A stretch of DNA of 64,000 nucleotides from Closterium sp. NIES-65 (lineage: Eukaryota; Streptophyta; Zygnematophyceae; Desmidiales; Closteriaceae). Made by a program: the position numbers and the translations under genes. Shown here piece by piece: positions 3,101-62,330 of this stretch (position 1 is the first letter of the stretch; every line of letters starts with the position of its first letter). Under the pieces are notes generated by a model, which saw only the letters and a list, made by a program, of their open reading frames with translations, was not told where the DNA came from and ran no database searches. The stretch spans positions 1,674,001 to 1,738,000 of the forward strand of contig CANXME010002192.1 in the NCBI GenBank assembly GCA_948144175.1, given 5' to 3'.

Positions 3101-4305
3101 AGGTAGCTGTCGACTCTCGTCCTGCTGGGGGTGCTGAGCCTGGGGGTGCTGAGCCTGGGGGTGTGGAGCTGGGGGTGTGGAGCCTGGGGGTGTGGAGCCT
3201 GGGGGTGCTGAGCTTGAGGGTACTGAGCCTGGGGGTGCTGAGCTTGGGGGTGCTGAGCTTCGGGGTGCTGAGCCGCAGAGTCCGGAGTCTGGGGGTTCTG
3301 GGTCTGGAGGTACTGGGCCTGGGAGTCCTACACTTGGAGGAGCCCTCTCCTCGGAGCAGCTGCGTGGGTGGTACTTATAGTACTGCAGCCTCAGGAGAGG
3401 TGCCGCTGGAGCCGGGCGTGCTACTGGGACTGGTGCTAGTGCTTCTCCTCCCAGTCGGGAGCTCCCCTCCCGTGAGCGGATCCGTGAGTGGTACGAGCGG
3501 CGCTGCACTCTTCGGAGTGGCGTGCCTCGTGTTGCGGACCCCGCTGTCGTGGGCGTTGCTGCTGGTGGTGCGGACCCGGGCGTTGGAGCTGCTGCTGGTG
3601 CTGCGGACCCGTGCGTTGGAGCTGATGCTGGTGCTGCGGACCCGAGCGTTGGCGCTTCTGCTGGTGCTGAGAACCCCGGTGTTGGAGCTGCTACTGAAGC
3701 TGCGGACCCAGGTGTTGGAGCTGCTGCTGGTGCTGCGGACCCTGGTGCGGGTGTCCCTGCTGGTTCTGCTGTCGCTGCACGGTCACGGCCGTACTTCGTT
3801 CCGCTCCTTCAGCAGGTTCTTGGTCAGCTCCCTCCTCCTTGTCCTCCTCCCTCCTTAGCATGTCCTCCGTCTGTCCTGCTGCAGTCGCAGTTACTGTCTA
3901 CCTCCTCTCTCCCTGGTCCTGCTCCTTACACTGGTCCGACTGGAGGTCTTACTGAGCGTCGTGAGCCTGAGTCTCGTCCTGCGTTGCCTGTCCGTACTGC
4001 TCTCACTGGTAGTCGTGTCCAGCGTCAGTGGTTCCTGCTGTCCCAGGCACTCACCGGATGGTGCTTCGTCCGTCCACTGCTCCACAGCGTGTCCCACTGC
4101 CGTCTCCTCCTGCTTCCTCTCTTCCTGCTCTTGCTGACCCTGGGTTAGACTCTCTTCGTGCTGCCAGTCCTACTGTGACGCGTCTCCTGGCTACTGTTCT
4201 TACTGACCCTTCCTTTGAGTCTGCTGCTGCGTCTGCCTTAGTTGCTGAGCTTGTCGACTTTGCTGCCACCTGTCGTCTAGACTACGCTGCTAGCCTGGTT
4301 GCTGA
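136..4305 (+). pseudogene. Copia-1 gag-protease-integrase, disabled
   Basis: The ATG at 136 starts a gag that resembles those at 15773 and 39806 (MASPQVLAFDAEG). A Gly-rich tract follows at about 930-1170. The aspartic protease motif LDSGAS is near 1635. The integrase has HMDVWGP near 2270, HSDRGGEF near 2477 and QQNGVAERR near 2575, so all three acidic catalytic residues are present. In-frame stops are TAG 223, TGA 1081, TAG 1207, TAG 1270 and TAG 2746. The linker to RT is made of two peptide repeats, GAEPGG-like (3130-3300) and GADPGVGAAA-like (3550-3760), with frameshifts near 3170 and 4030. The gene is cut at 4305 by the Copia-2 insertion. Confidence 0.9.
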
Positions 4306-4825
4306 TGTTGATTGTGTAGGATTGTGTAGGTGGTTGTGGTATTTTGCTCTAGCTGGTTGTGGGCTAAGGGTTTGGGCAAAATGTGGTGGTTAGACTTGTT
4401 GCGGGCTGGAATTGATCTCGCACCCAACAAGCACCAACAAACCTTTGCTATTCACTACAACAGCTTTGGTGTTGCTAGTTTAGCACCGTGGGTTGTTGGG
4501 GATTGTTGTAGGGCGAGGGTTGGGCTGGTAGGGTTTGAACAACTCGTCACTTTTCAGATCTGAACTCTTGCTAAAGCTACTTTCTTGAACTAATCCATGG
4601 CTGCCTAGTAATTCCGCCAGGATACACCTTCGCACTTAGATCGCGATAGCGATCGGCCCAGATTTTTGTTGAAAGCGTGCGTTACCATTCTGGAAAGTAG
4701 AGATTAAGACCTTTCTAACGCGTACCTGCTCATAGTTTAAGATTACGTGAGCTGCACGCAATGTTCCGTCGAAGTCGGCGGACTTAATCTCTTGTACGCT
4801 CTCCAGATTCGCTCGCTTTCCATCA
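4306..4825 (+). repeat. Copia-2 5' LTR (520 bp)
   Basis: It matches 9625-10134 along its whole length. A 10-bp direct duplication (ATTGTGTAGG at 4311-4320 and 4321-4330) makes it longer than the 3' copy. Confidence 0.95.
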
Positions 4826-4826
4826 G

Positions 4827-4841
4827 TGGTATCAGAGCTGG
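4827..4841 (+). promoter_or_regulatory. Copia-2 primer-binding site (initiator tRNA-Met type)
   Basis: TGGTATCAGAGC lies one base after the LTR end and is the usual plant copia primer site, complementary to the 3' end of initiator tRNA-Met. Confidence 0.9.
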
Positions 4842-4913
4842 TTAGGCCTGCGACATTCCCTCTTTTCATCATATTTCGAATTGGTTGAAGGACCTCCAGA
4901 TCTAGGGTTGGTC

Positions 4914-7796
4914 ATGGCCCAGAAATTAGATGGCCCTCCTAGGTTCACTGGCTCGGATTTTTCGCTATGGCGGTTCCAGTTTACGCTTTGGCTAGGTATC
5001 AAAGACCTAGAAGGCGTTTTGGAGGGATCGGAGCGAAGACCTGAAGCTGATGTAGGAAAGGCATCTACTGGAGTCTCTATCCAAGTGGGAGAAGGGGCTG
5101 GGGGAGCCTCTAGCTCATCCATAACTGAGGGAAGTGGAGGTGGATCAGCAGCATCGCGAACCGGAAGGCAACGGCTTAGTGCGGAGGAGCTTCTTAAGGC
5201 ACAGGAAGCATGGGACCGCAAGGACAAGCAAGCGTTCCAGTACCTGTGTTGGGCCTTGGAAGGCCAACTAGAGCTCCTAAAGATGCTGATTGACCTGAAG
5301 GGCAAGCAAGGAGCAGCTGCACTAGCATGGAAGAGAGTTCAAGATCGACATTTGCAAAAGGGGTTGCTAAGCATACTCACCTGGGGGAAGCGGTTCTACA
5401 CCATGGAACGCAACTATGGCGATGGGGAGACCATGGTGCAGTATCTCCAGAGGGTGGATGAGTATGTGAGAGCCTTAGAGGAGTTGAACTACACTGTAGA
5501 TGAGAAGGAGATCATCTACACCGCACTCCAGGGGCTGGACCAAGAGGTGAACGAGGCCCTACTGCAGTACCTTCACCTTGAGCAACAGAAATGGACCAAG
5601 GCCTGGATATGGGAGGTGTTGGTCTCTGATGAGGCTCGCAAACGGGATGCTAGTAGAATAGTTGAAGGGGGAATGGGGGCAGGGGATAGGGCTGCCTCCA
5701 AGAAATACCAGCAGCGGCAAGGAGGTGGGGGGAAGAAGAAGGAGCTCGACAAGTGCCTCGTCCCTGGATGCAACCGGAAGCATTCTTGGAAGGAGTGTTG
5801 GAGCCGTCCTGATGGGTGGAAGCCTCAAGGGTACCCAGGAGAGGCTCCACCTGTCACTAGGCCTGAGTGGGTGGAGAGGAGGATGAAGAATGGAGCATGG
5901 AACAAGAAGGGCAGCAAAGAGAAATCGGCAGCAACGGCGGCAAACGAGAATAAGAAGGGAAAAGAGGACTCATCGGATGATGGTTTCTCCTTCTTATCCT
6001 TGGAGAAGGAGACAGCGCTTGCTGGTCGTGTGCTGGCTGACCCAAATCAGCTCATTCTAGACTCTGGGGCAACCTGTGGAATGGTACCTCGGCGCGACCT
6101 CTTCACCACCTATCACTCCCTCCCACCTTACTCTAGAAATGTGATTATGGGGAGCGGAGATACGCTGCAAGCAATCGACATCGGCACCATCACCGTCATG
6201 GGGAAGGAGGGGGAGGTGCTGAATGTGAAGGGTGTGCTTCATGTTCCTGATTTGGCAGCCAACCTTCTCTCATGCTCTCAACTTGCAAGGCAAGAATACA
6301 TATGCACCTTCACCATGGAAGGTGGCACGGTTCGCAAGGGTGGAGCTGTGGTGATGGAAGCCAAATTAGAGAAGGGCCTATACCTTGTTCCAGTTTGTGT
6401 GCCTCAGGTGGAGAGGGCACATGGAGTTGAAGCCAAGGAAGCCGCTTGTAGCAGCCGTTGGAGGGACGTGGAGCAGGTGACGGCAGATTTGCTGCACCTA
6501 CGCATGGGGCATGCAGGAAGGCAGCAACTTGTGGAGTGTGTGAAGAAGGGGGAGCTGAAGGGTGTGGAGATCAAGGAGGGTGGTGGGCAGCCAAGCAAGT
6601 GCCCTGATTGCACGACCGGGAAGCTGCCAAGGACCTCTTTCCCTACCTCCACCACTCGAGCCTCCGCACCTCTTGAGTTGGTGCACACGGATGTGTGTGG
6701 CCCCATGCAAACACCGGATAGGGAGAAGGGCAGCAAATACTTCATCACCTTCTTGGATGACTTCAGCCGCCTAAGTTGGGTTACCTTGGTGAAAACCAAG
6801 GATGAGGTGGCCAAGGTCTTCAAACGTTGGATACGCTATGCGGAGAGGGAAGCCGGGGCGAAGGTGAAGATACTAAGGTCTGATCGGGGTGGGGAGTACA
6901 TGGGGAAGGATCTGGAGTCTTTCCTTGAAGACAAGGGCATTACCCACCAGCTTTCAGTTGCCTACACGCCGCAGCAAAATGGGGCAGCGGAGCGGCTTAA
7001 CCGGACCCTCATTGACCTTGCCCGATCCATGCTTGCTCATGCGCAGCTGGACCATACTTGGTGGGGGGCAGCAGTGCAATATGCCAACTGGGTTAAGAAC
7101 AGAATGGGCAGCAAGGGGCTAGGGGGCAAGAGCCCTTACTTCATGTGGACCAGGTAGGTGCCTAGTGTGTCCATGGCACGAGTGTGGGGGTGCATGGCGC
7201 AGTACAAAGTGCCCGACCAGCAACGGAGGAAACTGGATCCTAAGGCACAATGGGGCATTTTTCTTGGGGTGTCGGAGAGAAGCAAAGCTTGGATGTTGTG
7301 GAGTGTGGCGGATCAGCGGGTGGTGGAAAGCAGGGATGTGGTTTTCCACGAGGGGCTGAGCTATAAGGGGTGGAAGGAGCATGGTGCTAGTACATTTGGG
7401 AGCTCCCTTCAGGATCCCTACACCTCTTCCATCTTTGAGGGGGCATGGGAAGACCCTGGAGAGGAGGTAGAGGAGCAGCAAGAGGAACAAAAGGCAGCTG
7501 CACCTCACCATGAGGAGTCACCAACTGCTGGTTCTACCCCTGACCCTAACGCACCAGCCCATGACCCGGAGCAGCCACAGGGGCAGCAGCAGCAACAAGA
7601 GAAGCCGCAGCAGCCACCACAGGAGCATACACCACCTGTTCCTGTGGGTAGGTGGCAGCAAACTACTGCAGCAGCAGCTGTCCAAGTCACCATGGTCCCC
7701 CATGAAGAGAGTGACTTGGAAAGAGAAGCTGCAAAGTTTGGAGCAGGGGGAGGCTTCACCTCTGCGCCGCACCACACGCATCTCCCGGCCACCTGA
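4914..7796 (+). pseudogene. Copia-2 gag-protease-integrase with one TAG and a downstream frameshift
   Basis: I take the ATG at 4914 (MAQKLDGPPRFTGSDFSLW) as the start because it begins the conserved gag. The frame is open back to 4881. A zinc knuckle of form CX4CX3HX4C is at about 5757-5801. The protease motif ILDSGATCGM is near 6055, GAG-pre-integrase LRMGHAGRQQ near 6500, and the integrase motifs HTDVCGP (6682), RSDRGGEY (6880) and QQNGAAERLNRT (6972) are intact. An in-frame TAG at 7155-7157 interrupts the integrase C-terminal part, which goes on in the same frame to 7796. The Gln/Pro-rich linker then shifts frame near 7.70-7.74 kb and again near 7.84 kb before RT. No active polyprotein is expected. 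Confidence 0.92.
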
Positions 7797-49791: not shown

Positions 49792-50319
49792 CTACCTCCG
49801 CGTGCACAGGCTCAACCCCACATACAGCCGGTCATTGTTGCACACGTATCCATTGTTCAGCTCTGCCATCTTTCGCGCACTGTTCTGGAACTTGAGCGAT
49901 ATGATGCGCGCACAGAAGTCCCCCCTCGTCACCGAGTAGAACGCCAGGCACCGCCGCTTCGTCACAGGCGCCCGGCCCACCCTTAGCACTCCGGCTTTAA
50001 CTAGCCTTGCCCACCGCTGCTGCCACGCGGGCTGCTGCCACGGGGGAAGCTGGAAGGGCGGCTTGCCTGTGAGGTGCTTTGCTGTCCAGACGCGTTTCCA
50101 AGGGGATTGATGGAGGAGGCCTTGTTGGGGTGAGGGATGTTGTATGGAGGAGCTCTGCTGTGGAGTGAGCTTTCCCAGTGAGTGGGGTGTTGATGGGAGG
50201 GGAAGAGCGGTGGGCTGCGGCTGGGTGCGGTGCTGCTGGGTGAGGAGTGGCTGGGTGAGCGAGTAGGATCGGTAGCTGGCGCTGGTGGTGCTGATGTAGA
50301 TGTATGCGAAGAGGCACAC
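49792..50319 (-). CDS. Exon 12: Ser/Pro/Gln-rich linker and terminal LysM 4
   Basis: 175 codons and stop. A low-complexity linker is followed by FYSVTRGDFCARI, MAELNNGYVCNN and LYVGLSLC, a LysM module that closes the protein at CTRR. Confidence 0.8.
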   Translation of the reverse strand: MCLFAYIYISTTSASYRSYSLTQPLLTQQHRTQPQPTALPLPSTPHSLGKLTPQQSSSIQHPSPQQGLLHQSPWKRVWTAKHLTGKPPFQLPPWQQPAWQQRWARLVKAGVLRVGRAPVTKRRCLAFYSVTRGDFCARIISLKFQNSARKMAELNNGYVCNNDRLYVGLSLCTRR

Positions 50320-53300
50320 CTGGGGGCCAGATGGGTGGATTTGGGTGCCGTGAGATGAAGAGCGGTGAGAGGGGGTTCAGTGAGATGGGGTGTGGTGACA
50401 GGGTTGAGGAGAGAAAAGACTAGGTGCGGGACACGCAATGGGATGGGCCGAAGGCACTGGATCAAACGGTAAGAGCTGCCTGCACACCAGTAGAAACCTC
50501 CCTCCAATATCACCTGCACGCCAGTAGTAGCAAGCCACCTTCCATCCAGCATAGCACCTCCCCTGGTTGTCACCTGCACGCCAGAAAACACCTGCCCCCA
50601 ATGTCGCCTGCACTCCAGATGCCACCTCCCCCAAGTGTCACCTGCACTCCAGAAGCCACCTCCCCCAAGTGTCACCTGCACTCCAGAAACCACCTCCCCC
50701 AAGTGTCACCTGCACGCCTGTGATGTCCATGCCGTTGGGGAAGAGGTTGTCACATGCGAGGCCCGGGTTCATCCAGAAGGAGAGTGCCGGAAGGTTGTAG
50801 CGCTGCATGAGGGTGGCTACTCCCTCCCTCCCTAATACCAGTTGCTACCTGCACGCAGGCACAAGTAACCACCTCCCCCAGGTGTCACCTGCACTCCAGT
50901 GATGTCCATGCCGTTGGGGAAGAGGTTGTCACACGTGAGGCCCGGGTTCATCCAGAAGAAGGAGAGTGCGGGCAGGTTGTAGCGCTGCATGAGAGTAGCA
51001 CATGTGTCCCCTGGTTTCACACCCTCCCACCACGAGCACATCGGGTAGTCCATCCCATCGCCCTCTCGCACACAGATCTGCGGAATGGGGAAAGGGGGGA
51101 TGGAGACGGGGGGATGGAGAAAGGGGAAGGGATGGGAGGGTGATTGCTCTGCTCGCTCGGCCTCCCGCCACGAGCACATAGGGTAGTCCATCCCATCGCC
51201 CTCTCGCACACAGATCTGCGACTGTGAGTGAGGGAGGGGGAATGGAGGAGGGGGAATTGAGAAAAGGGGAAGACGAAGGGGGAAGGGATGGGATTATGCT
51301 GGCTCACTCGCCCTCCCACCGCTCACACATGGGATGGATGAATTCCAGAGAAGTCAAGACCATATCAATCAACTGTTGTACAAATCCTTACGTGAACTAG
51401 CTAGCTTTTAGCACAACAGCTTACATGAAGTCCAGCGCAGTCAAGACCAGAGAAGTCAAGACCACATCAATCAAGCCTAGACAAGTCAAGGCATCTCAAA
51501 CGACGGCTGTGGCTTTTCTTTTCTTTGCGTTTCATGACCCACCTGCTGGCCTGGAGAGGGCGCGAGGCAGGACTCGCTGCCAGAGCAGTCAAGACCCGAA
51601 CACTACAAGTTGCTGATTCCCGCTAAGCGGTTAAAGCTGCTTTCAACCGTTTCCAACCCACCTGCTGGCCTGGAGAGGGCGCGTGGCAGGACTCGCTGCC
51701 AGAGCAGTCGAGCCCGGGATTCAAGCGAGTCAACTCGGTCTCGTCGATTTCGAACAGTTCCGCTACAGCCGAGCAGGAGTCGTCGTTGGTCCAGGAGTAG
51801 AAGAGGCTGCAGGCGATGCAGGTGGATGTGGGTGCCACGTTGACTTCGGTGTTGGCTGGGATGGTGGCGCATGGGGAGGCCTGGTGGGAGAGGGTGGGGA
51901 GAGAAGGAGGGCGAGGGGAGGGGGGGAGGGAGCACATGTGAATGGTAGCCACGTTGATTTCAGTGTTGGCTGGGATGGTGGCACATGGGGAGGACTGGTG
52001 GGGAAAGTGGGGGAATTGGAGGAGGGAGGGAGGGAGGGAGGGAGGGAGGGAGGGAGGGAGGGAGGGAGGGAGGGAGGGAGGGAGGGAGGGAGGGAGGGAG
52101 GAAGGAGGGAGGGAAGAATGGGGGAGGGAAGGGGGAGAGAAGGGGGAGAGAGGAAGAGGCGAGGGTATGAGCGTCAGGAGTTGCCTCCAAAGTACTAGAG
52201 AGCATTATTCAAGCGATTCAACTGGGTCAAAACCGAGTGGAACAGTGCTCGCCTCACGTGCGTCAAGAGAGGGAGCTCACCAGCTCGGAGTTCTGAGCGA
52301 GGAATGCCTCCTCTGTGAGGCCGTAGAGCTGGTAGACGAGCGGGCAGTCCACGTCCACGGGGAAGGTGAGCGTTGTGGGGGGATCGGTGGCTGGCGAAGG
52401 GGGGGGGGGGGGGAAGGAAGGGGAATGCCAATTCAGGAATGCGGAATGCGAAAGAAAGAGCTGGTATACTTGTGGGCAGTCCACGTCCACGGGGAAGGTG
52501 AGCGTTGTGGGGGGATCGGTGGCTGGCGAAGTGGGGGGGGGGGGGGGGGAAAGGTGAAAGGTGAAAGGGGGTTAGCGGGCAGTGGGTGGGGGGAGTTAGT
52601 GGCTGAAGGGAGGTGGGGTAGAGAGGAGGAGGGAGGGCATGGAGGCAAGGCAAGGAGTGAGCGTGGTGGGCGGGGAACGAGGATGCAGCAGTGGGGAGGG
52701 GGGAAAGTGGAAGGGGGTTAACAACGGGTGGGGGAGTTGGAGTTGGTCAAAGGAAGGGGGAAGACGAGCGGGCAGTTCATGTCCACTGGGAAGGAGGGGG
52801 TGGTGGTGGGGGGGGGGGGCGAGACTGCAGCAGGGTGGGCTAACGGGTGGGGGAGTGGGAGGCGGAGAAAACAAGGAAGAAGACGAGCAGAGCGGGGCGG
52901 TCCATGAGAGCCAGGAGGAAGGCGAGTGTGGCGGGCGGAGGGGGATGAGAATACGTTTGAGGCGCCTGAACGAAAACTGAGAAAAAAAAAAAACGGAAAT
53001 AGGCGCCTCAGAAACAGTCCATGTGAAGCAGGAAGGCGAGTCCATGTGAAGCAGGAAGGCGAGTCCATGTGAAGCAGGAAGGCGAGTCCATGTGAAGCAG
53101 GAAGGCGAGTCCATGTGAAGCAGGAAGGCGAGTTTGGTGGAGGGAGAGGAGTGAGGCTGGATAAGCAGGGTGGGGGCAGGTGGGTGGGTGGAAGAGGAGG
53201 TGAAGGAGCAGAACACAAGGGCGGGAGACATGTGTAAGTACACAAGAGTGCATGTGCATGTGAGGCATGTGTGCATGTGTGTGTGTATCCCACATGCAGG

Positions 53301-56300
53301 GGTACCCATGTGTATGCATACCCATGCACAAGCATGCCCATGTGCAAGCATACCCATGCACAAGCCCGCCCAAGTGAACGCACGCCCAAGTGAACGCACG
53401 CCCAAGTGAACGCACGCCCAAGTGAACGCACGCCCAAGTGAACGCACGCCCAAGTGAACGCACGCCCAAGTGAACGCATACCACAGCCAGGCACCAGCGT
53501 CACTCACAGGGCGTGCAGGTCTCCTGTCCGAGTGCGTGTCTATGTGTGTTGCCACATGGTATCATGCCCATCTGCACGCATGCCCATCTGCACGCATGCC
53601 CATCTGCACGCTTGCCCATCTGCACGTATGCCCATCTGCATGCTTGCCCATCTGCATGCATGCAACAGCCGGGCCCCAGCGCCACTCACAGGGCGTGCAG
53701 GTATCCCATCCGAGCGTGAGGCTGCCCTTCACATATCCCGGGGGGCAAAGACAAAAGTAGCCGCCCGCATTGTCGTTGATGCAAGTGCCTGTGAGGCATG
53801 GGTTGGACGCCTGCGTGCCACATGCATCCACTGGGATGGAAGGGAGGAGAATGCGAGACGGGTGAGGAGGGGAAAGGTGAGAAAAGGGCACAGGGAACAA
53901 GACATGGGACGGAATGTGTCGTTGATGCATGTGTCTGTGAGGCATGGGTTGGACGCCTGCGTGCCACATGCGTCCACTGGGATGAAAAAGGGGGGAAGGG
54001 GGGAGGAGGGAGGGGGGAGGAGGGAGGGAGGAGGAGGGAGGGAGGAGGTGAGAAAGACTTCCAAGGCGGCTAAAAAAGGTGCATGTGTCTGTGAGGCATG
54101 GGTTGCACGCCTGTGTGCCACATGCATACACTGGGATGGCGAGGGAATGGGAACAGGGGGAGGGGGGAGGTGAAAAATACTTCCATTCCAAGGCGGCTCA
54201 AGAAGGTGCGTGTGCATGTGAGGCACGGGTTAGATGCCTGCGTGCCACATGCATCGACTGGGATGACAAGGAAAAGGGAACAGGAGGAAGGGAGGAGGTG
54301 AGAAAGGGGCGCAGAAAAGAAGGCAAGATAAGGCCGGTGCTGAAGCGTGCATGTGCGTGTGCACGTGCATGTGCATGTGAGACATAGTAACTTTTGAGTC
54401 GACTCAAAAATCACGTCGTTACAATGGCACACGGCAGAAAACGAGGCAAGATAAGGCCGGTGCTGAAGCGTGCATGTGCATGTGCATGTGCGTGTGCATG
54501 TCTGTGTGCATGTGAGACATGGGAAGGATAGTGCTGAAGCGTGCATGTGCGTGCGAACAGAAGGACACAATAGAAAGCAAGAGACTCACGTGGAGCGCAC
54601 GTCTGCATGCCGTCGTCGTTGGTGAAACTGACAAAGCCCGCCGGACACTGACAAGAGTAGCCGCCCTCCTCAGGCACACACACGCCGCCCCCACAGGGCT
54701 TCTGAGGCGAGTCACAGGGCGATGGCACTGGTGTGGCACGGCGGTTAATGGGGGAGGGTGATGGGGGGGAAGGTGTGGGGGGGAGTGGAGGGGGGACGGA
54801 GGGGAGTGAGTTAATTTTGCGCCGCCCCCACAGGGTTAGTGGCCAAGTCACAGGGGGAAGGCACTGGTGTGAAGGGGAAGGGGATGGGCATGGGGACGGA
54901 GAGTGGGGGAGGGTGATAGGGGAAAGGTGTGTGGGGGGAGAATGGAGGGGCAACGAGTCACAGGGGGACGGAACTGGTGTGGCTTGGTGGCAGATGGAGG
55001 AGGATGATGGGGGGAAGGTGTAGGGGGGAGTGACGGGGGAACGGAGGGTAGTGAGTTACTGCTGTAGCGGATTGATACAAGCGCTGCCCCCCCAGGGCTT
55101 CTGGAGTGAGTCAAAGGGGAACGGCAGGGGAGGGGGAGGGGGGGGGGGGGGAGGAGGGGAGGACGGGAGGAACGGGGAGGAGGAGGGGAAACGGAGAGAA
55201 TTGAATCACTCTTGTAGATGATCGACGGTTGCAAAGGAGCAGAGGACGACATGGCTCGATGACAACTCACCCTGAACAAAATGGTAAATGGTGTAACTCA
55301 CCCCTGAAAGAATGGGTACATGGTGTAACTCACCCTGAACGATGGGGTAAATGGAGTAACTCACCCTGAATGATGGGGTAAATGGTGTAACTCACACTGA
55401 ACGATGGGGTAAATGGTGCAACTCACCCTGAACGATGGGGTAAATAGCCGGCACGGAATGGATTCCGCAGATGCCAACGCTTCCTGCGAAAGCCATCCTC
55501 ATATGGCCCTGATGGGAAGGGAGGGAGGGAGGGAGGGAGGGAGAGAGGGAGACAAACTTCACAAATGGAGGGCGAAGGGGGAGGTGAGGTGAAGTTAAAT
55601 ACAATCTATATCCGCAGATGCCAACGCTTCCCGCGAAAGCCATCCTCATATGGCCCTGATTGGGAGGGGAGGGAGTGGGGAGAGGGGGAATGGGGGAGAT
55701 GGGGAGGGGCAGAGAGGTAGAGAGAAGTGGAGAGAGTGATGAGGAGAGAAGTGGAGATGCCAACACTTCCTGCAAAGCCATCCTCATACGCCTTGATGGG
55801 AAGGGAGAACGGGAGAACGGGAGAGGGGGAGTGGGGGAATTGGGGAATGGGGGAGATGGGGAGATGCCAATGCTTCTTGCAAAGCCATCCTCATACGGCC
55901 TTGATGGGAAGGGAGAACGGGAGAGGGAGAATGGGGAGATCGGGGAAAAAAAGGGAGAGAGCTTCATCCTCTCATGCCCCAGATAGGAAAGAAAGGGAGG
56001 GGAAGAGCACGGGGGGGAGAGGGGAGGTGGTTAGAGGTGGAGAGAGGTGGAGAGATGGATTGATGGAACAAGGCAACTTCCTAGCTTGACCTGCTTGAAA
56101 AAACACTGCACACTTCTATATCCGCACCTTCTTGGCAATGACCTCGCTCTCTATATCCGCACCTTCTTGGCAATGACCTCGCTCTCTATATCCGCACCTT
56201 CTTGGCAATGACCTCGCTCTCTATATCCGCACCTTCTTGGCAATGACCTCGCTCTCTATATCCGCACCTTCTTGGCAATGACCTCGCTCTCTATATCCGC

Positions 56301-59300
56301 ACCTTCTTGGCAATGACCTCGCTCTCTATATCCGCACCTTCTTGGCAATGACCTCGCTCTCTATATCCGCACCTTCTTGGCAATGACCTCGCTCTCTATA
56401 TCCGCACCTTCTTGGCAATGACCTCGCTCTCTATATCCGCACCTTCTTGGCAATGACCTCGCTCTCTATATCCGCACCTTCTCGGCAATGACCTCGCTCT
56501 CTATATCCGCACCTTCTCGGCAATGACCTCGCTCTCTTTATCCGCACCTTCTTGGCAATGACCTCGCTCTCTATATCCGCACTTTCTTGGCAATGACCTC
56601 GCTCTCTATATCCGCACCTTCTTGGCAATGACCTCGCTCTCTATATCCGCACCTTCTTGGCAATGACCTCGCTCTCTATATCCGCACCTTCTCGGCAATG
56701 ACCTCGCTCTCTATATCCGCACCTTCTCGGCAATGACCTCGCTCTCTATATCTGCACCTTCTTGGCAATGACCTCGCTCTCTATATCTGCACCTTCTTGG
56801 CAATGACCTCGCTCTCTATATCCGCACCTTCTTGGCAATTACCTCGCTCTCTATATCCGCACCTTCTTGGCAATGACCTCGCTCTCTATATCCGCACCTT
56901 CTTGGCAATGACCTCGCTCTCTATATCCGCACCTTCTTGGCAATGACCTCGCTCTCTATATCCGCACCTTCTCGGCAATGACCTCGCTCTCTATATCCGC
57001 ACCTTCTTGGCAATGACCTCGCTCTCTATATCCGCACCTTCTCGGCGATGACCTCGCTCTCTATATCCGCACCTTCTCGGCAATGACCTCGCTCTCTATA
57101 TCCGCACCTTCTCGGCAATGACCTCGCTCTCTATATCCGCACCTTCTCGGCAATGACCTCGCTCTCTATATCCGCACCTTCTTGGCAATGACCTCGCTCT
57201 CTATATCCGCACTTTCTTGGCAATGACCTCGCTCTCTATATCCGCACCTTCTTGGCAATGACCTCGCTCTCTATATCCGCACCTTCTTGGCAATGACCTC
57301 GCTCTCTATATCCGCACCTTCTCGGCAATGACCTCGCTCTCTATATCCGCACCTTCTCGGCAATGACCTCGCTCTCTATATCCGCACCTTCTTGGCAATG
57401 ACCTCGCTCTCTATATCTGCACCTTCTTGGCAATGACCTCGCTCTCTATATCCGCACCTTCTTGGCAATTACCTCGCTCTCTATATCCGCACCTTCTTGG
57501 CAATGACCTCGCTCTCTATATCCGCACCTTCTTGGCAATGACCTCGCTCTCTATATCCGCACCTTCTTGGCAATGACCTCGCTCTCTATATCCGCACCTT
57601 CTCGGCGATGACCTCGCTCTCTATATCCGCACCTTCTCGGCAATGACCTCGCTCTCTATATCCGCACCTTCTCGGCAATGACCTCGCTCTCTATATCCAC
57701 ACCTTTTCGGCAATACCCTCGCTCTCTATATCCGCACCCTCTGTCCTCTCCCAAACTCATCCCCATTGCCCCCCCCTCCCTCCCCTTCTACAACATTTTC
57801 TCCCGCATTCCTTTGCCCCACCTGCGCACCCCATTTGTCACCCAAGAGGCCATGTTCACAACATCATCACATCACATCCATGCAATCACATCACACCCAA
57901 GGTTTAAATAGATGGTTTTCGTGAGATGCAGTCCGGTTTTTTACGGATTTTTTTGCGAGAAAAAAAGCGACCGTTTTTCGTTAGAGCCCGATCACAAAAA
58001 AAAGGAAAGAAAAAAAAAAGGTCGGATACATTTTTCAATCATGTCTACAAACGGAAACATGCAAGAAAATGCAAACAATTATGTAGATAACTTGATAAAT
58101 AACTCTTTCTCCTGCTCAATTTCCCTGTTGTCCCATGGGTTGATTGATACCCCCTCCTAGTGAAAAGAAAGAAAAAAAACGACCGGTTTTTAGACCAAAC
58201 AGAGAACACATCCTGGACCGTGTTTTACCGTTTTTTACAGCCGTTTTATACAATATGGTTCTTAACTGTAAAATTTCAAAGATACCATATTTTTTTATAC
58301 CCTGATTTGATTACACCCATGCCATCATACACACCCATGCGCATGCCATCCATACCATGCCATGCCCATCCATGCCACATGCCATCGCCGCACCGCACCG
58401 CACCTGCTCGCCCCACCACTTGATGCCCCACGAGTTGCGCAGGGTCCAGTTGCCCTGCCCATCAGGGACTGCAAGGGAGCGCCCACGCGTACCCTACCCC
58501 ACCACCAGCACCTGCAGGTAACCCCATCCACCCCACCGCACCTGCTCGCCCCACTTGGTGCCCCACGAGTTGCGCACGATCCAGTTGCCCTGCCCATTTG
58601 GCCCCGTGAACGCATACCCCACCACCAGCACTGCATGGTCCACAATGCCTGCTGCCGCACACCTGGGATCGCCATAGACGCCCTGAGGGGAACAAAAGGG
58701 GTGAGAGGATCGGAAGGGAGATAGGGACGGTGAGGAAGGAGAGGAGGGAGAGGAGTAGCACCCCCTGATGGGAAGTGGAGGGGGGGTGGGTCGATGGGAA
58801 AAGGGGAAGTAAAGGAGATGCAAAAGGAGGGAGAGTGACCGCACAACCCATTGCCCAGCACGAGTTCAAAAACGACTCAACTGAGAATCCTTAAAAGGAA
58901 GATGGAACGAGAGGGAGAATAAACGCATTCCCCATAGCCCACCAGCAGCACTGCGACATTTGAGTCGACTTAAGATCACCTCTTCCCCATAGCCCACCAG
59001 CAGCACTGCGACATTTGAGTCGACTTAAAAGTCACCTCTTCCCCATAGCCCACCAGCAGCACTGCGACATTTGAGTCGACTTAAAAGTCACCTCTTCCCC
59101 ATAGCCCACCAGCAGCACTGCGACATTTGAGTCGACTTAAAAGTCACCTCTTCCCCATAGCCCACCAGCAGCACTGCGACTTTTGAGTCGACTCAAAAGT
59201 CACCTCTTCTTGGTCCACGATGCCTGCGGCTGCTGCACACTCGGGGTCCTAGAAAACGCCTTTTCTTATTACAAGTGCTAAACAAGCCATATCAGCAGCT

Positions 59301-61995
59301 ACACCAAGAAGTAAAAGAACAGCATACCCATTTGTATTTCTGGAAGGAGGGGAAGCTGCCGCGCACAAAGGCAATGACCGGCTGCACCTGCACGGCCAGC
59401 AGCAGCCCGATCCACCCATAGAAGTCCACCTGCTCGTACCGCGCCAGACCCAGTGGCGTGGACGATGTGGCGATCTGAGCGGGGTGAGGGGATGGGGAGA
59501 GGAAGGGGGTGAGGAAGGCAGTGAGGGCGGTAGAGGGAGGAGACAATGGCTGGCTGCACCTGCACGGCCAGCAGCAGCCCAATCCACCCATACAAGTCCA
59601 CCTGCTCGTATCGCGCCAGACCCAGTGGCGTGGATGACGTGGCGATCTGAGGGGGAGCAGAGGGAGAGCAGAGGGGGGAGGATGAAAGGGGAGGGAGTGA
59701 GGGAAGAGGGAGAAGAAAATATTAGATGTCCTTTCACTTCTCTATTCTTCTTTCTACCCAAGCCCGATCCGAACAACACATCCCCCCTCGCACCTTCCCC
59801 TCGCACCTTGCCTGCGTTGCACTTGGCCTGCTTGCCCTTGTACGGGTACTGCAGCTGCGGCACAAGCCCCCCCAGGTCGTTACTGGCATCCACCATGTAG
59901 TCCAGCGCTGATGTGGGCCACCCGCCCTTGCAGCTGCTGCTGCTGGGCTCGCAGTCCACCACCTGAAGCGGTGAAGGAGAGGAAGGAGGGGTGCAAGACG
60001 GTGGAGGGTCAGCACTGGCGCTGATGTGGACCACCTGCCCTTGCAGCTGCTGCTGCTGGGCAGAGGGGACGGGGAGAGGAGCATGAGAGGGTGGGTGGAG
60101 TGTGAAGGATGCGTGCTTGCACGAGGGTGCGCGCATTAGCGTGTGTAGCCCATGCACGCACGATGTAGCCCATGCACGCACGATGTAGCCCATGCACGCA
60201 CGATATAGCCCATGCACGCATGATGTAGCCCATGCACACACTATGTAGCCCATGCACGCACAGCATAGCCGTTTTTAGAGTCGACTCAAACCCTTTGCCT
60301 ACACCAAGGCTTGCCTTTACCTTCGAGTCCGCACCACCAAGGATGACGTGCTCACCGCACCGCACCGCACACCACACCACACCGAACCTGCTGTGTTGCG
60401 TTGGGCGTCTCACTCAATCTTGTCATGTGCTGCTGAGCGCACGCACCTGCTGCACGGAGATGTTGAAGGCACTGTCGTACGACTCTAGCTGGTCTGCAAC
60501 CATGGCCATGGTCACTTCCACCGCGTTCACTGCTGCGATCGCCCATGACGCCTCTGGGCAGGGGGCGAGGAGGAGAAGAGAGAGAGGGGGGGGGGGGGGG
60601 TTGGGGAGGGGTTTGGGGGAAAGGACACTTCAATGGTGTTGCAATCATAGCCATCGTCACTTCCCCCGCGTTCACTGCTGTGATCACCCATGACGCCTCT
60701 GCTCTGAACAGGCGGGAGGGACGGGGGGGGAGGTGGAGGAGGGGAAAGGGGGAGGGTGGTGGGCGGGTTGTTGGAGGGGGGACTTCTGAGGCGTGTCAAA
60801 ATTCGCAATCATAGCCATGGTGTCATGTAACCTCCACCGCGCTCACTGCTGCCATCCCCCATGATGCCTCTGCTGTCGGGGAGGGATGGGCAGGGGGGGA
60901 GGGGGGTGGGGGGGGGAGGACGGGGTCAAAAGTCCCACTCATAGCCATTGTGTCCCCTCCACCGCGCTCACTGCTGCCATCCCCCATGACGCCTCTGCCA
61001 CACGAGGGGGTGGGCAGGGGGGAGGTGGAGGAGGAGGACTTTTGAGACAGGGGCAGTCGCTCAACTGCTACCGGGGGCTTGTGCAGGTGCAGGTGTGATT
61101 TTTGAGTCGACTGAAAAATCGGCTGGTGCAGGTGCAGCCCACAGCACATGGAGCGCGCAACTACTCTCAGTGCGAATCCATGCTCCATGCGCAACTACTA
61201 TTGAGACGTCTCAAGAATTGCAATCATAGCCGCAGTCACTCTCACTCCCACCGCGTTCTCTGCTGCGATCGGCCATGATGCCTCTGCCATGGGGGAAAGG
61301 GACCAGCAGGGAGAGCGGGGAGAAAAGCGGGCGGCACAAGCAAAAACGAACAAGAGTAAGGACGAGGAAGCAGCACACCGCACCACACCACACTGCATCA
61401 CACCACACCACACCGCACCGCACCATACCATACCACACCCCACCACACTCACTGCACTCCTTGCACGCCCTACAGCTCGCGCCTGTCCACATTAAAAGTC
61501 AACACCCCAGCAGTCACAGCTGCTGCTATACCCCATGCTCCGACCAGCAATCATGTGCTAACACTCCGCACCACACTGCACCACACCATATCAATCCACA
61601 CTGCATTAGATAGCACCACACCACACCACCACATTACTCGCTGCACACCCCCTCGTTGCGCACGCCTTGCACGCCCTGCAGCTCGCGCCAGTCCACGTTC
61701 AGGTCAACACTCCAGCAGTCACACCTGCTGCTATACCCCATGCTCCGACCAGCCATCATACGCTAGCACACCAAACCGCACAGAACCGCACACTGCACGA
61801 CACCACCATGTTACTCACTGCACGCGCCCTCGTTGCGCACGCCTTGCACGCCCTCCAGGTCGCGCCAGTCCACGTTCAGGTCAACACTCCAGCAGTCACA
61901 CCCGCCGTCATACCCCATGCTCGGATATCTCGATACGCGGTTCAGGTGCCTCGGCTGTAGCAGCGCAAAGCTGGGCACCGCGCTACAGGCGTAGG
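49792..61995 (-). CDS. Papain-like (Ser for active-site Cys)/EGF/LysM modular protein, 12 exons, 5' end not found
   Basis: Exons: 61819-61995, 60447-60553, 59807-59962, 59328-59474, 58542-58682, 55428-55509, 54590-54727, 53690-53830, 52281-52390, 51662-51880, 50889-51077, 49792-50319. All junctions are GT-AG and phases match throughout, giving about 710 residues. Order: end of a propeptide, complete papain fold, two EGF-like modules on phase 1-1 exons, four LysM modules, stop. LysM binds N-acetylglucosamine polymers; with EGF this suggests a secreted wall or matrix protein. The catalytic Cys is Ser and the oxyanion Gln is Glu, while His and Asn remain, so ordinary Cys-protease activity is unlikely. 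Papain-LysM proteins have, from memory, been reported in volvocine algae. Signal peptide and prodomain must lie further right. Confidence 0.8.
50500..50720 (-). repeat. Splice-donor-bearing minisatellite beside exon 11
   Basis: About six units of 33-40 bp. On the minus strand each carries CTGGAGTGCAG or CTGGCGTGCAG followed by GTGACA, the last exon bases plus donor of exon 11. The most distal unit contains CAATATCACCTGCACGCCAG (plus), shared with 13.1-13.4 kb. Confidence 0.85.
50889..51077 (-). CDS. Exon 11: LysM 3
   Basis: VKPGDTCATLMQRYNLPALS and MNPGLTCDNLFPNGMDI are textbook LysM. The 3' end with its donor (GCAG/GTGACAC) is repeated several times downstream (50560-50720). Confidence 0.88.
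51662..51880 (-). CDS. Exon 10: end of LysM 1 and most of LysM 2
   Basis: PCATIPANTEVNV closes LysM 1. FYSWTNDDSCSAVAELFEID and LTRLNPGLDC form LysM 2. The exon ends APSPGQQ before GTGGGT. Confidence 0.82.
52019..52105. repeat. GGGA microsatellite in the intron after exon 9
   Basis: About 20 GGGA tetranucleotides on the plus strand. Confidence 0.95.
52281..52390 (-). CDS. Exon 9: first LysM module, main part
   Basis: DVDCPLVYQLYGLTEEAF and LAQNSEL fit the LysM helix pair and Asn. Two partial copies lie upstream (near 52420-52530 and 52755-52790). Confidence 0.72.
53008..53660. repeat. Three minisatellites in the intron after exon 8
   Basis: A 22-23 bp unit GTCCATGTGAAGCAGGAAGG (five copies, 53018-53130), a 16-bp unit CAAGTGAACGCACGCC (seven copies, about 53369-53477) and a 16-bp unit GCCCATCTGCACGCAT (six copies, about 53569-53660). 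Confidence 0.9.
53690..53830 (-). CDS. Exon 8: EGF-like module 2
   Basis: ACGTQASNPCLTGTC, then YFCLCPPGYVKG, then WDTCTP: six Cys in EGF spacing on a phase 1-1 exon. Three partial copies of its first half lie upstream (to 54262). Confidence 0.85.
54590..54727 (-). CDS. Exon 7: EGF-like module 1
   Basis: Six Cys in EGF spacing: CDSPQKPCGGGVC, then YSCQCPAGF, then a final Cys in MQTCAP. Phase 1-1 exon. Confidence 0.85.
55265..55445 (-). repeat. Tandem repeat of exon 6 edge and splice donor
   Basis: Five to six units of about 31 bp. Each minus-strand unit contains TTTACCCCATCGTTCAGG and GTGAGTT, the last codons of exon 6 plus its donor. Confidence 0.85.
55428..55509 (-). CDS. Exon 6: papain C-terminus
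   Basis: GHMRMAF then GICGIHSVPAIYPIVQ, the usual C-terminal CGI...YP of the family. It ends in phase 1 at a GTGAGTT donor. Its 3' edge and donor are tandemly repeated at 55265-55445. Confidence 0.85.
55606..55905 (-). repeat. Three degenerate copies of exon 6
   Basis: Copies at about 55606-55654, 55757-55798 and 55863-55905 repeat GGCCATATGAGGATGGCTTT and the following codons with decay. The AG acceptor is kept in the first and altered in the other two. Confidence 0.8.
56116..57740. repeat. Minisatellite of 46 exact 35-bp units in the intron after exon 5
   Basis: The unit begins CTATATCCGCACCTTCTTGG and ends CAATGACCTCGCTCT. 1610 bp divided by 35 is exactly 46, and a partial 47th unit follows. 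Variation is by substitution only, mostly T or C in CTTCTTGG/CTTCTCGG. Markers recur 630 bp apart. Frames across it come from the 35-bp period and are not genes. Confidence 0.97.
57741..58330. other. AT-rich intron DNA, no gene seen
   Basis: Poly-A and poly-T runs, and CATGCCAT-like short repeats from 58315 to 58385. Nothing coding. Confidence 0.6.
58542..58682 (-). CDS. Exon 5: catalytic His and Asn
   Basis: 47 codons. DHAVLVVGY holds the catalytic His and NWIVRNSWGTKWGEQ the catalytic Asn. A diverged copy of the NSW part lies at about 58413-58470. Confidence 0.88.
58925..59201 (-). repeat. Five tandem 56-bp units with an exon-5-like fragment and a palindrome
   Basis: Each unit reads on the minus strand AVLLVGYGEE (like AVLVVGY of exon 5) and carries a GAGTCGACT-centred inverted repeat. 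The last, at 59178-59201, is a perfect 24-bp palindrome. Confidence 0.85.
59328..59474 (-). CDS. Exon 4: papain region before the catalytic His
   Basis: 49 codons, IATSSTPLGLARYEQ to FPSFQKYKW, including the AVQVQPVIAFV strand. A partial second copy lies at about 59535-59646. Confidence 0.82.
59807..59962 (-). CDS. Exon 3: papain middle region
   Basis: 52 codons, VVDCEPSSSSCKGG to YPYKGKQAKCNAGK, matching the LvDC...CxGG and YPY...C motifs of the family. Clean CAG acceptor and GTGCGA donor. Confidence 0.85.
60140..60262. repeat. 20-bp tandem repeat
   Basis: About six copies of CCATGCACGCACGATGTAGC in the intron after exon 2. Confidence 0.92.
60447..60553 (-). CDS. Exon 2: active-site helix with Ser for Cys
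   Basis: After splicing the junction reads CKASWAIAAVNAVEV, where active papains have CGSCWAF. Ser (TCA) takes the nucleophile place. The exon ends SAFNISVQQ before a GTGCGT donor. Confidence 0.82.
60633..61284 (-). repeat. Four partial copies of exon 2
   Basis: Copies ending (high side) near 60699, 60871, 60994 and 61284. Each has a CAG acceptor and begins with codons for ASW; all keep Ser at the catalytic place. They break off after about 20-25 codons and lack the exon 2 donor. Confidence 0.85.
61440..61745 (-). repeat. Two partial copies of exon 1
   Basis: At about 61663-61745 (NVDWRELQGVQGVRNEGVC) and 61440-61545 (more decayed). Both retain the exon end, but the GT donor is altered (GC) in the nearer copy. 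Confidence 0.8.
61819..61995 (-). CDS. Exon 1 of the model: propeptide end and start of papain domain
   Basis: 58 codons in phase 2/1. It ends VDWRDLEGVQGVRNEGAC, the mature N-terminus of the fold; Glu stands where papain has Gln19, and the last Cys is the Cys22 equivalent. The upstream part (VPSFALLQPRHL) is not recognised. Confidence 0.8.
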
Positions 61996-62330
61996 CTGGG
62001 GGAGGGGGGGGCAGGAGGGCATGGGGGGAGGAAGGGGAGAGCACCCGCCGTCATACCCCATGCCCGCATTTCTTGACACGCTTTTGAGATGCCTCGGCTG
62101 TAGCAGCGCAAAGTTGGGCACCGCGCTACAGGCGGATGCTGGGGGAAGGGGAGGGGGAAGGAGAGGGGCAGGATATGGAAGAAGGGCAGGGCAGGGGAGG
62201 GAAGGGGGGCGGGTGGGGAGGAGAGGGGGGCGGGGGGTGGAGAAGGGCAGAGAGAGAGCAGTTGCTGTCACGCCCCGTGAGAATTGAGGATGAAAGGTAG
62301 GAAATTGAAGTGGGCGGCGGGGAAGCAGGT
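61996..62330 (-). repeat. Partial upstream copy of exon 1 and G-rich DNA
   Basis: 62043-62137 repeats the first half of exon 1 (SACSAVPNFALLQPRHL and MGYDGGC). Beyond it is G-rich sequence. No signal peptide exon found. Confidence 0.65.

Follow-up and report, generated by a model that had tools for sequence, protein, structure and literature searches.

Partial copies of exon ends beside the exons of a papain-like gene in Closterium sp. NIES-65 and of unrelated genes in the same genome

Introduction

Duplication near exon borders is among the described sources of intron sequence. In the potato RdRp gene, an intron was gained by tandem duplication across an intron–exon boundary, with a duplicated block that consists, as in the copies described here, of the polypyrimidine tract, the acceptor and the 5′ part of an exon (PMC4974935). 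The potato case, however, is one event that yielded a new intron, whereas here many events appear to have lengthened existing introns, in many genes and with spacers that are often non-homologous. The tandem genomic duplication model (PMC3443670) likewise invokes a local direct duplication that is kept as splicing hides it, but there an exonic AGGT segment is duplicated and an intron is created, whereas here existing splice sites are copied. Published cases of a duplicated exon passing into an intron resemble ours in that exon sequence is absorbed by the intron; they are few, stem from duplication within coding sequence and are not described as growing serially.

Two further systems are relevant. 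Introners (PMC9860276) are a genome-wide source of intron sequence, a feature that the copies reported here may share, but they are dispersed elements inserting into exons, whereas the DNA added here repeats the end of the neighbouring exon. Small tandem duplications arising from staggered breaks (PMC8355091; insertions in rice, via PMC7407515) are direct repeats, some with inserts, made by local repair, a description that may also fit the present copies; unlike these, they are presented without a link to exon edges. Across the part of the literature covered, duplications across or near exon borders appear as separate cases, and a genome-wide pattern of the present kind was not found.

Here, we analysed a window of 64,000 nucleotides from Closterium sp. 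NIES-65 (contig CANXME010002192.1, positions 1,674,001 to 1,738,000), in which a sequence-only reading had noticed partial tandem copies, carrying a splice junction, beside most exons of one gene. These exon-edge copies are confirmed and extend to unrelated genes of the same genome. Coordinates below are positions in the window.

Results and discussion

The focal gene

The focal gene lies on the minus strand (49792..61995), and its twelve exons, with GT/AG borders, form one open frame of 710 codons (710 aa) from 61995 to 49792, in a model that lacks the 5′ part of the gene. The protein contains a papain-like domain, EGF domains encoded by two exons, and three LysM stretches (Pfam). Over the catalytic domain, it matches the Papain family (C1) profile (PF00112, E 1.6e-42); when the focal protein is aligned to ficin, Ser occupies the site at which this family is expected to carry its catalytic Cys. 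The region of the Ser codon lies in the start of exon 2 (60553–60510), and TCATGG is found there as well as in all four exon 2 copies. The two EGF domains (54727–54590 and 53830–53690) each occupy one phase-1 exon of similar length, and the two exons are possibly an old whole-exon duplication.

Several members of the gene family are located on the same contig, and in the neighbouring paralog B focal exons 2 and 3 correspond to a single exon (84496–84155 in window-extended coordinates), which reflects intron gain or loss. Positions 1–47000 of the window hold several copia-type retrotransposon frames, plus one set with reverse transcriptase and tyrosine-recombinase domains.

Copies of exon ends in the focal gene

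Searches with the exons alone recovered same-strand partial copies of the 5′ end upstream of 11 of the 12 exons, and of the 3′ end downstream of six, each containing or nearly reaching the respective exon start or end. The E-values are mostly 1e-7 to 1e-34 (the weakest accepted being 9e-5 to 9e-4), none of the copies is inverted, and they diverge by 2–30% from their exons. All sit within existing introns and leave the coding frame unbroken. Some of the 37 focal matches do not mark an edge: two rows pair EGF exon 7 with EGF exon 8, and another row, at 52228, matches the interior of exon 10 at 69%.

All copies are on the minus strand, the start of each being at its higher coordinate. Exon 1 (61819..61995) is preceded by a copy of its 5′ part with the acceptor (62042..62134, 89%) and followed by a donor-side copy of its 3′ part, in which the GT is now GC (61642..61748, 92%), and by a second donor-side copy (61454..61543, 83%). 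Upstream of exon 2 (60447..60553) are four copies of its start (61242..61283, 90%; 60940..60994, 84%; 60805..60869, 77%; 60640..60698, 90%), the first and third of which run into palindrome-like sequence. Exon 3 has an upstream copy whose match lacks the first 14 nt of the exon (60018..60061, 95%), and exon 4 a copy of its 5′ part with the acceptor (59541..59646, 92%). The 5′ part of exon 5 recurs in decayed form within 58928..59248, where the copy itself (59248–59201) lacks the first 12 nt of the exon and is followed by a 56-bp array that contains an exon 5 piece and a palindrome; a donor-side copy of this exon lies at 58404..58541 (70%, with gaps). Intron 5 also houses a minisatellite of about 46 units of 35 bp (56115–57742), which is one unit shorter in the other haplotype.

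Three copies of the exon 6 start (55862..55900, 90%; 55755..55788, 94%; 55611..55655, 98%) are accompanied by a 31-bp array of the exon 6 end and donor, with about 5.8 units (55264..55445). The start of exon 7 recurs twice (55077..55126, 78%; 54820..54863, 82%) and that of exon 8 three times (54207..54255, 88%; 54080..54130, 90%; 53917..53976, 95%), the latter exon also having a donor-side copy of its end (53508..53541, 79%). Further copies represent the start of exon 9 (52759..52810, 83%; 52457..52522, 94%), the start of exon 10 (51943..51993, 90%) and its end on the donor side, where the similarity ceases 6 nt beyond the donor (51543..51596, 94%). Exon 11 has a start copy (51161..51215, 96%), a donor-side copy (50710..50817, 90%) and a 34-bp array of its end and donor, with about 4.4 units (50568..50715). 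Exon 12 yielded no copy at E 0.01 in the exon-only search, and a separate search past its stop codon returned nothing beyond short matches (E 0.003), including an inverted one. The copies that the sequence-only reading had placed beside most exons, including the four starts of exon 2, the three each of exons 6 and 8, and the repeated ends of exons 6 and 11, were all recovered, and exon 3 and the upstream side of exon 5 join its list.

Repeats are error-prone in assembly, but the second haplotype (C531) aligns through the focal gene with the same copy arrangement, differing by 57 SNPs in 15,855 bases, one of which falls in the 12 exons. Since the copies are present in both haplotypes and have diverged from their exons to the extent given above, they are very unlikely to be an assembly artefact. 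The two haplotypes show 15 length differences, and the seven of at least 13 bases, read as repeat-unit changes, include one unit of the 56-bp array and one fresh 36-bp tandem duplication. No single edge copy was gained or lost between the focal haplotypes, the only difference of this sort being the one unit of the 56-bp array, with its exon 5 piece.

Copies in other genes

In a profile search for chaperonin (CCT) genes, copies were already visible in the hit table. At the DNA level, four CCT genes of about eleven loci, two of which (C43 and C1626) were chosen after copies had been seen in that table, carry copies at 19 of their 23 segments. In seven MCM genes, sampled as the loci with several hits and leaving out contigs with one or two weak ones, copies accompany 22 of 31 segments; one of these genes, C1466, with introns of 143–181 bp, has none. 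The CCT and MCM segments are profile-matched stretches rather than exact exons, and profile hits that looked like copies in their own right were excluded from the segments. Taken together with the focal gene, 52 of the 66 exon segments in twelve genes of three unrelated families have a copy. All 160 matches in these genes are direct and none is inverted, the 160 being non-independent alignment pieces that include the two EGF exon 7–8 matches and, for the focal and CCT genes, are limited to matches within 1500 bases.

Paralogs B and C of the focal gene have direct copies at 11/13 and 6/10 segments, respectively, and three inverted matches, all with the last exon (one in B, two in C). Recent tandem arrays are also found, with eleven nearly identical copies in C43 that carry the acceptor and 57 nt of a chaperonin exon at a spacing of about 124 bp (L047 index 4720–6014), and four tandem copies at 146 bp in C2359. 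When exons were compared with loci of other families as a control, 5 of 471 tests matched; this figure, the E-values in the focal gene and the lack of inverted copies together exclude chance. As a separate matter, C213 (G000) holds several actin genes with gaps of about 60–75 bases between profile hits and has no second-haplotype match in the table; it may be another organism or a collapsed contig.

Decay of the copies

The sequence-only reading had also suggested that the copies might be a source of alternative splicing. Across 26 of the 37 focal matches (the short, array, EGF and low-complexity rows being omitted), mismatches amount to 8.7, 8.1 and 15.5% for the first, second and third codon positions, the pattern that a freely drifting copy of a constrained exon would give. 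Seven of the 26 copies contain a frameshifting gap and three an in-frame stop. The AG is kept in 14 of the 20 acceptor copies inspected, or 14 of the 17 that reach the edge, which is near the prediction from about 10% neutral divergence. Between haplotypes, SNPs number 11 in 6326 bases of copies, 59 in 21861 of introns and 2 in 6638 of exons, with low-complexity arrays (77 SNPs in 3422 bases) set aside. That AG or GT persists in most copies and that copies have slightly fewer SNPs than introns would suit a role as alternative splice sites or exons, but the latter difference is not significant (p 0.20), and neither codon positions, gaps and stops nor splice-site retention supported such a role. 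Given this near-neutral decay, use of the copies in alternative splicing is highly improbable, and we do not retain the suggestion.

Copy anatomy and intron length

Among matches over 30 nt with an offset up to 900, 64 of the 80 upstream copies begin within 6 nt of the 5′ end of the segment and none reaches its far end, while 46 of the 58 downstream copies end within 6 nt of the 3′ end and six reach the far end. Complete exon copies, as tandem whole-exon duplication would leave them, are accordingly limited to 0/80 upstream and 6/58 downstream. Median distances to the nearest copy are 147 bp upstream (34/44 offsets in 110–190) and 159 bp downstream (26/37). A model with uniform breakpoints expects 55% and 50% of offsets, respectively, in this range; as it already places about half of them there, copy size is only somewhat tighter than the model. 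In all 19 introns with both kinds of copies (eight genes), the donor-side copies come first and the acceptor-side copies follow, between the two flanking exons. The nearest copy resembles the exon more closely than the second copy does in 28 of 39 pairs (p 0.005).

Long introns are usually attributed to transposons and drift. In the 42 introns of nine genes sampled here (C1626, C2128, C637 and the first intron of C1919 being left out), the number of exon-edge copies predicts intron length (rho 0.92). Introns free of copies have a median length of 181 bp (n=11, 143–385), and for one, two, three, four, five and six copies the medians are 400, 497, 625, 923, 1220 and 1256 bp (n=9, 6, 4, 8, 1 and 3, respectively). 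Because longer introns offer more room for copies, which inflates the correlation, the better argument comes from what is left after the stretch out to the farthest copy is subtracted; this residue is independent of length (rho −0.04) in 41 introns, a set that further omits the 3,033-bp intron holding the 35-bp array. In introns over 250 bp, the stretches to the farthest copy account for 96% of the length in excess of 181 bp.

What is seen directly comprises the copies, their order in the intron, strand and size, their number relative to length, and their roughly neutral decay. We consider it likely that introns of the sampled genes grew by accretion of exon-edge duplications, and somewhat better than even that such accretion under survivorship is the best explanation overall. 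Introns would start at about 150–200 bp and lengthen by serial events, each inserting about 150 bp beside a working exon, that is, an exon-end copy with its splice site (a median of about 86 bp of exon) and a spacer (often 40–100 bp). Events that spare one intact exon and usable splice sites would persist while others would be purged, a regime that predicts 5′ copies upstream, 3′ copies downstream and few whole-exon copies; older copies would drift toward the intron centre. From the centring of duplications on exon edges, the sequence-only reading had proposed a local mechanism. The local process at exon edges is borne out, being seen in unrelated genes, but the centring is in part geometric, because a copy survives only if an intact exon and usable splice sites remain.

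Introns lengthened by repeatedly added and decaying ends of neighbouring exons appear to be an unusual way for genes to lengthen. If the pattern is genome-wide, intron growth could be read step by step, and duplication across exon borders would be open to study in bulk.

The splice-site boundary

Similarity between copies and exons breaks off at the splice site more abruptly than would be expected from plain tandem duplication, which poses a direct question on the copying step. Of the 56 nearest copies, 20 have a homologous spacer (z above 4), 24 do not (z below 2) and 12 fall between. Plain tandem duplication predicts a homologous intron spacer, so the 24 spacers that show no such homology, which can be absent even when the exon part is 94–95% identical, constitute a puzzle. 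Where the spacer is complex and the exon part at least 95% identical, three of six are still non-homologous, and age or low complexity does not fully explain the missing homology.

Past the splice site, the median extension of the match is 6 bases at donors, versus 5 for unrelated exons, and 8 bases at acceptors, versus 3. The match exceeds the 95th percentile of unrelated exons in 6/24 donor-side and 14/43 acceptor-side copies, but 10 of these 14, with matches of at least 120 bases, belong to two tandem arrays, removal of which leaves 4/32. Outside the two arrays, 10 of 56 copies match beyond the splice site above chance and 46 no further than unrelated exons do. The rarity of similarity past the splice site indicates that copying may respect exon borders, or that gene conversion refreshes the exon parts.

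The latter possibility amounts to old tandem duplications, with ancient copies, diverged spacers and an exon that repeatedly overwrites the part matching it, and is compatible with accretion. It would account for similarity that ends at the splice site while the spacers retain an intron-like composition (the median pyrimidine fraction being 0.79 ahead of acceptors, n=32, and 0.42 following donors, n=24). It would also fit the geometry that young arrays share with older copies, and paralog B, in which edges that have copies in the focal gene often have them too, matched to the exon of paralog B itself. However, spacers are also non-homologous in 19 of 34 copy-to-copy pairs and no conversion tract was seen directly, and we regard this explanation as possible but rather doubtful.

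A second match in the sampled DNA was found for 27 of the 56 spacers, in many cases within their own array or locus and in some as a weak pyrimidine-rich match elsewhere. A dispersed origin of the spacer was considered for two stretches beside the exon 10 copy and set aside for these two, as a genome search found each only in its two alleles. As the origin of the boundary, conversion, filler from break repair and a border-aware process are all candidates.

Coding ends and background repeats

Were any coding edge able to be duplicated, copies would be expected at stop codons as well, and their absence there counts against accretion: at E 0.001, copies span the stop codon in none of 12 genes, versus copies at 36 of 63 donor edges (p 2e-4, Fisher's test; 0/7 and p 0.004 without histones). 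This comparison omits L030, L033 and L037, which have no clear stop, L036, which is the same gene as C1894b, and, from the histone set, L067 (poly-Q); it covers 260 bases downstream for C1757 and 327 for C43, and the stop of C584 is uncertain. Several last exons lack direct acceptor copies (those of the focal gene, C43, C1757 and paralog B, whereas that of paralog C has two), so that gene ends may be cold for another reason.

The contrast between stop-codon and donor edges, like the 46 blocks that go no further past the splice site than unrelated exons, would also suit a splicing-linked or RNA-templated step, in which the block would already be bounded by the splice site when it is copied. Yet a search of 11 focal junctions gave no convincing spliced exon–exon junction, and RNA copying was rejected on this ground; a weak match of exons 6–7 (76%, E 4e-7), extending 14 bases across the junction into pyrimidine-rich sequence, was read as chance. 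Moreover, the spacer has an acceptor or donor of its own, which is beyond what RNA copying alone supplies, and the last exons may simply be cold. We deem such a step improbable.

Another explanation holds that random local duplication is uniform everywhere and becomes visible only where exons keep one copy recognisable. Local matches at an offset of 100–200 were found for 58% of 298 exon-edge probes versus 25% of 966 intron probes away from copies, and the latter value, as well as the frequency of minisatellites, speaks for uniform duplication. It fits less well with three retrotransposon stretches, possibly young, in which 0% of 1759 probes have such a match (window positions 12–16 kb were rejected as an old non-genic control, the repeats there being low-complexity arrays). 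Five intronless histone genes have no copies at either coding edge, and their flanks (about 350–560 bases, low complexity masked) contain no repeats; the histones resemble those of plants. Together with the splice-site boundary of the copies, these observations make uniform duplication unlikely.

Accretion of exon-edge duplications remains the reading that we prefer, and for its molecular step error-prone repair of staggered breaks, which would leave direct repeats that may or may not be separated by filler, is the likeliest candidate, although we put it forward tentatively. More speculatively, a genome-wide process that recognises borders, either directly or through homology-bounded conversion, might copy exon ends as far as their splice sites, stack each such echo and a new intron-like spacer beside the exon in modules of ~150 bp, and be a main source of intron length in this lineage, a proposal that we regard as possible rather than probable.

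Haplotype insertions and palindromes

Haplotype comparisons identified no new haplotype-specific event of about 150 bp; an apparent difference of 173 bp proved to be the end of the compared stretch rather than a polymorphism. The C1133/C1657 pair differs by some 150–200 bases in a repeat-rich stretch around an exon-start copy, where the alignment is of low confidence. In the comparison of L048 (~3600–4200) with L052 (~4200–4400), the two haplotypes differ around a chaperonin exon-start copy, the first bases of which are replaced by a 34-bp array in one of them.

Two smaller insertions are polymorphic between haplotypes. That in C1657 (L052 2241–2263) consists of a perfect 22-base palindrome and one further base; it lies within an exon copy and has a 30-bp direct repeat at its flanks. 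That in C2261 (L054 2882–2900) is likewise palindromic, with a direct repeat of about 20 bp. The two cases show that unrelated filler does come to be framed by direct repeats in this genome, at a smaller scale than the exon-edge copies.

Both insertions, with direct repeats of about 20–30 bp, are sites of a palindromic motif with a variable centre, TTTTGAG NNNN CTCAAAA. As a general cause of the copies this motif was rejected: at 10 or more of 14 matches, it lies near 13 of 160 copy junctions, versus 2.5% of random windows, and would explain a minority of them at most. A total of 197,603 bases contain 74 sites of the motif, the majority within one L046 array, with sites in the window near 54392, 59178 and 62568; the palindrome is possibly a tiny mobile or repair-derived element.
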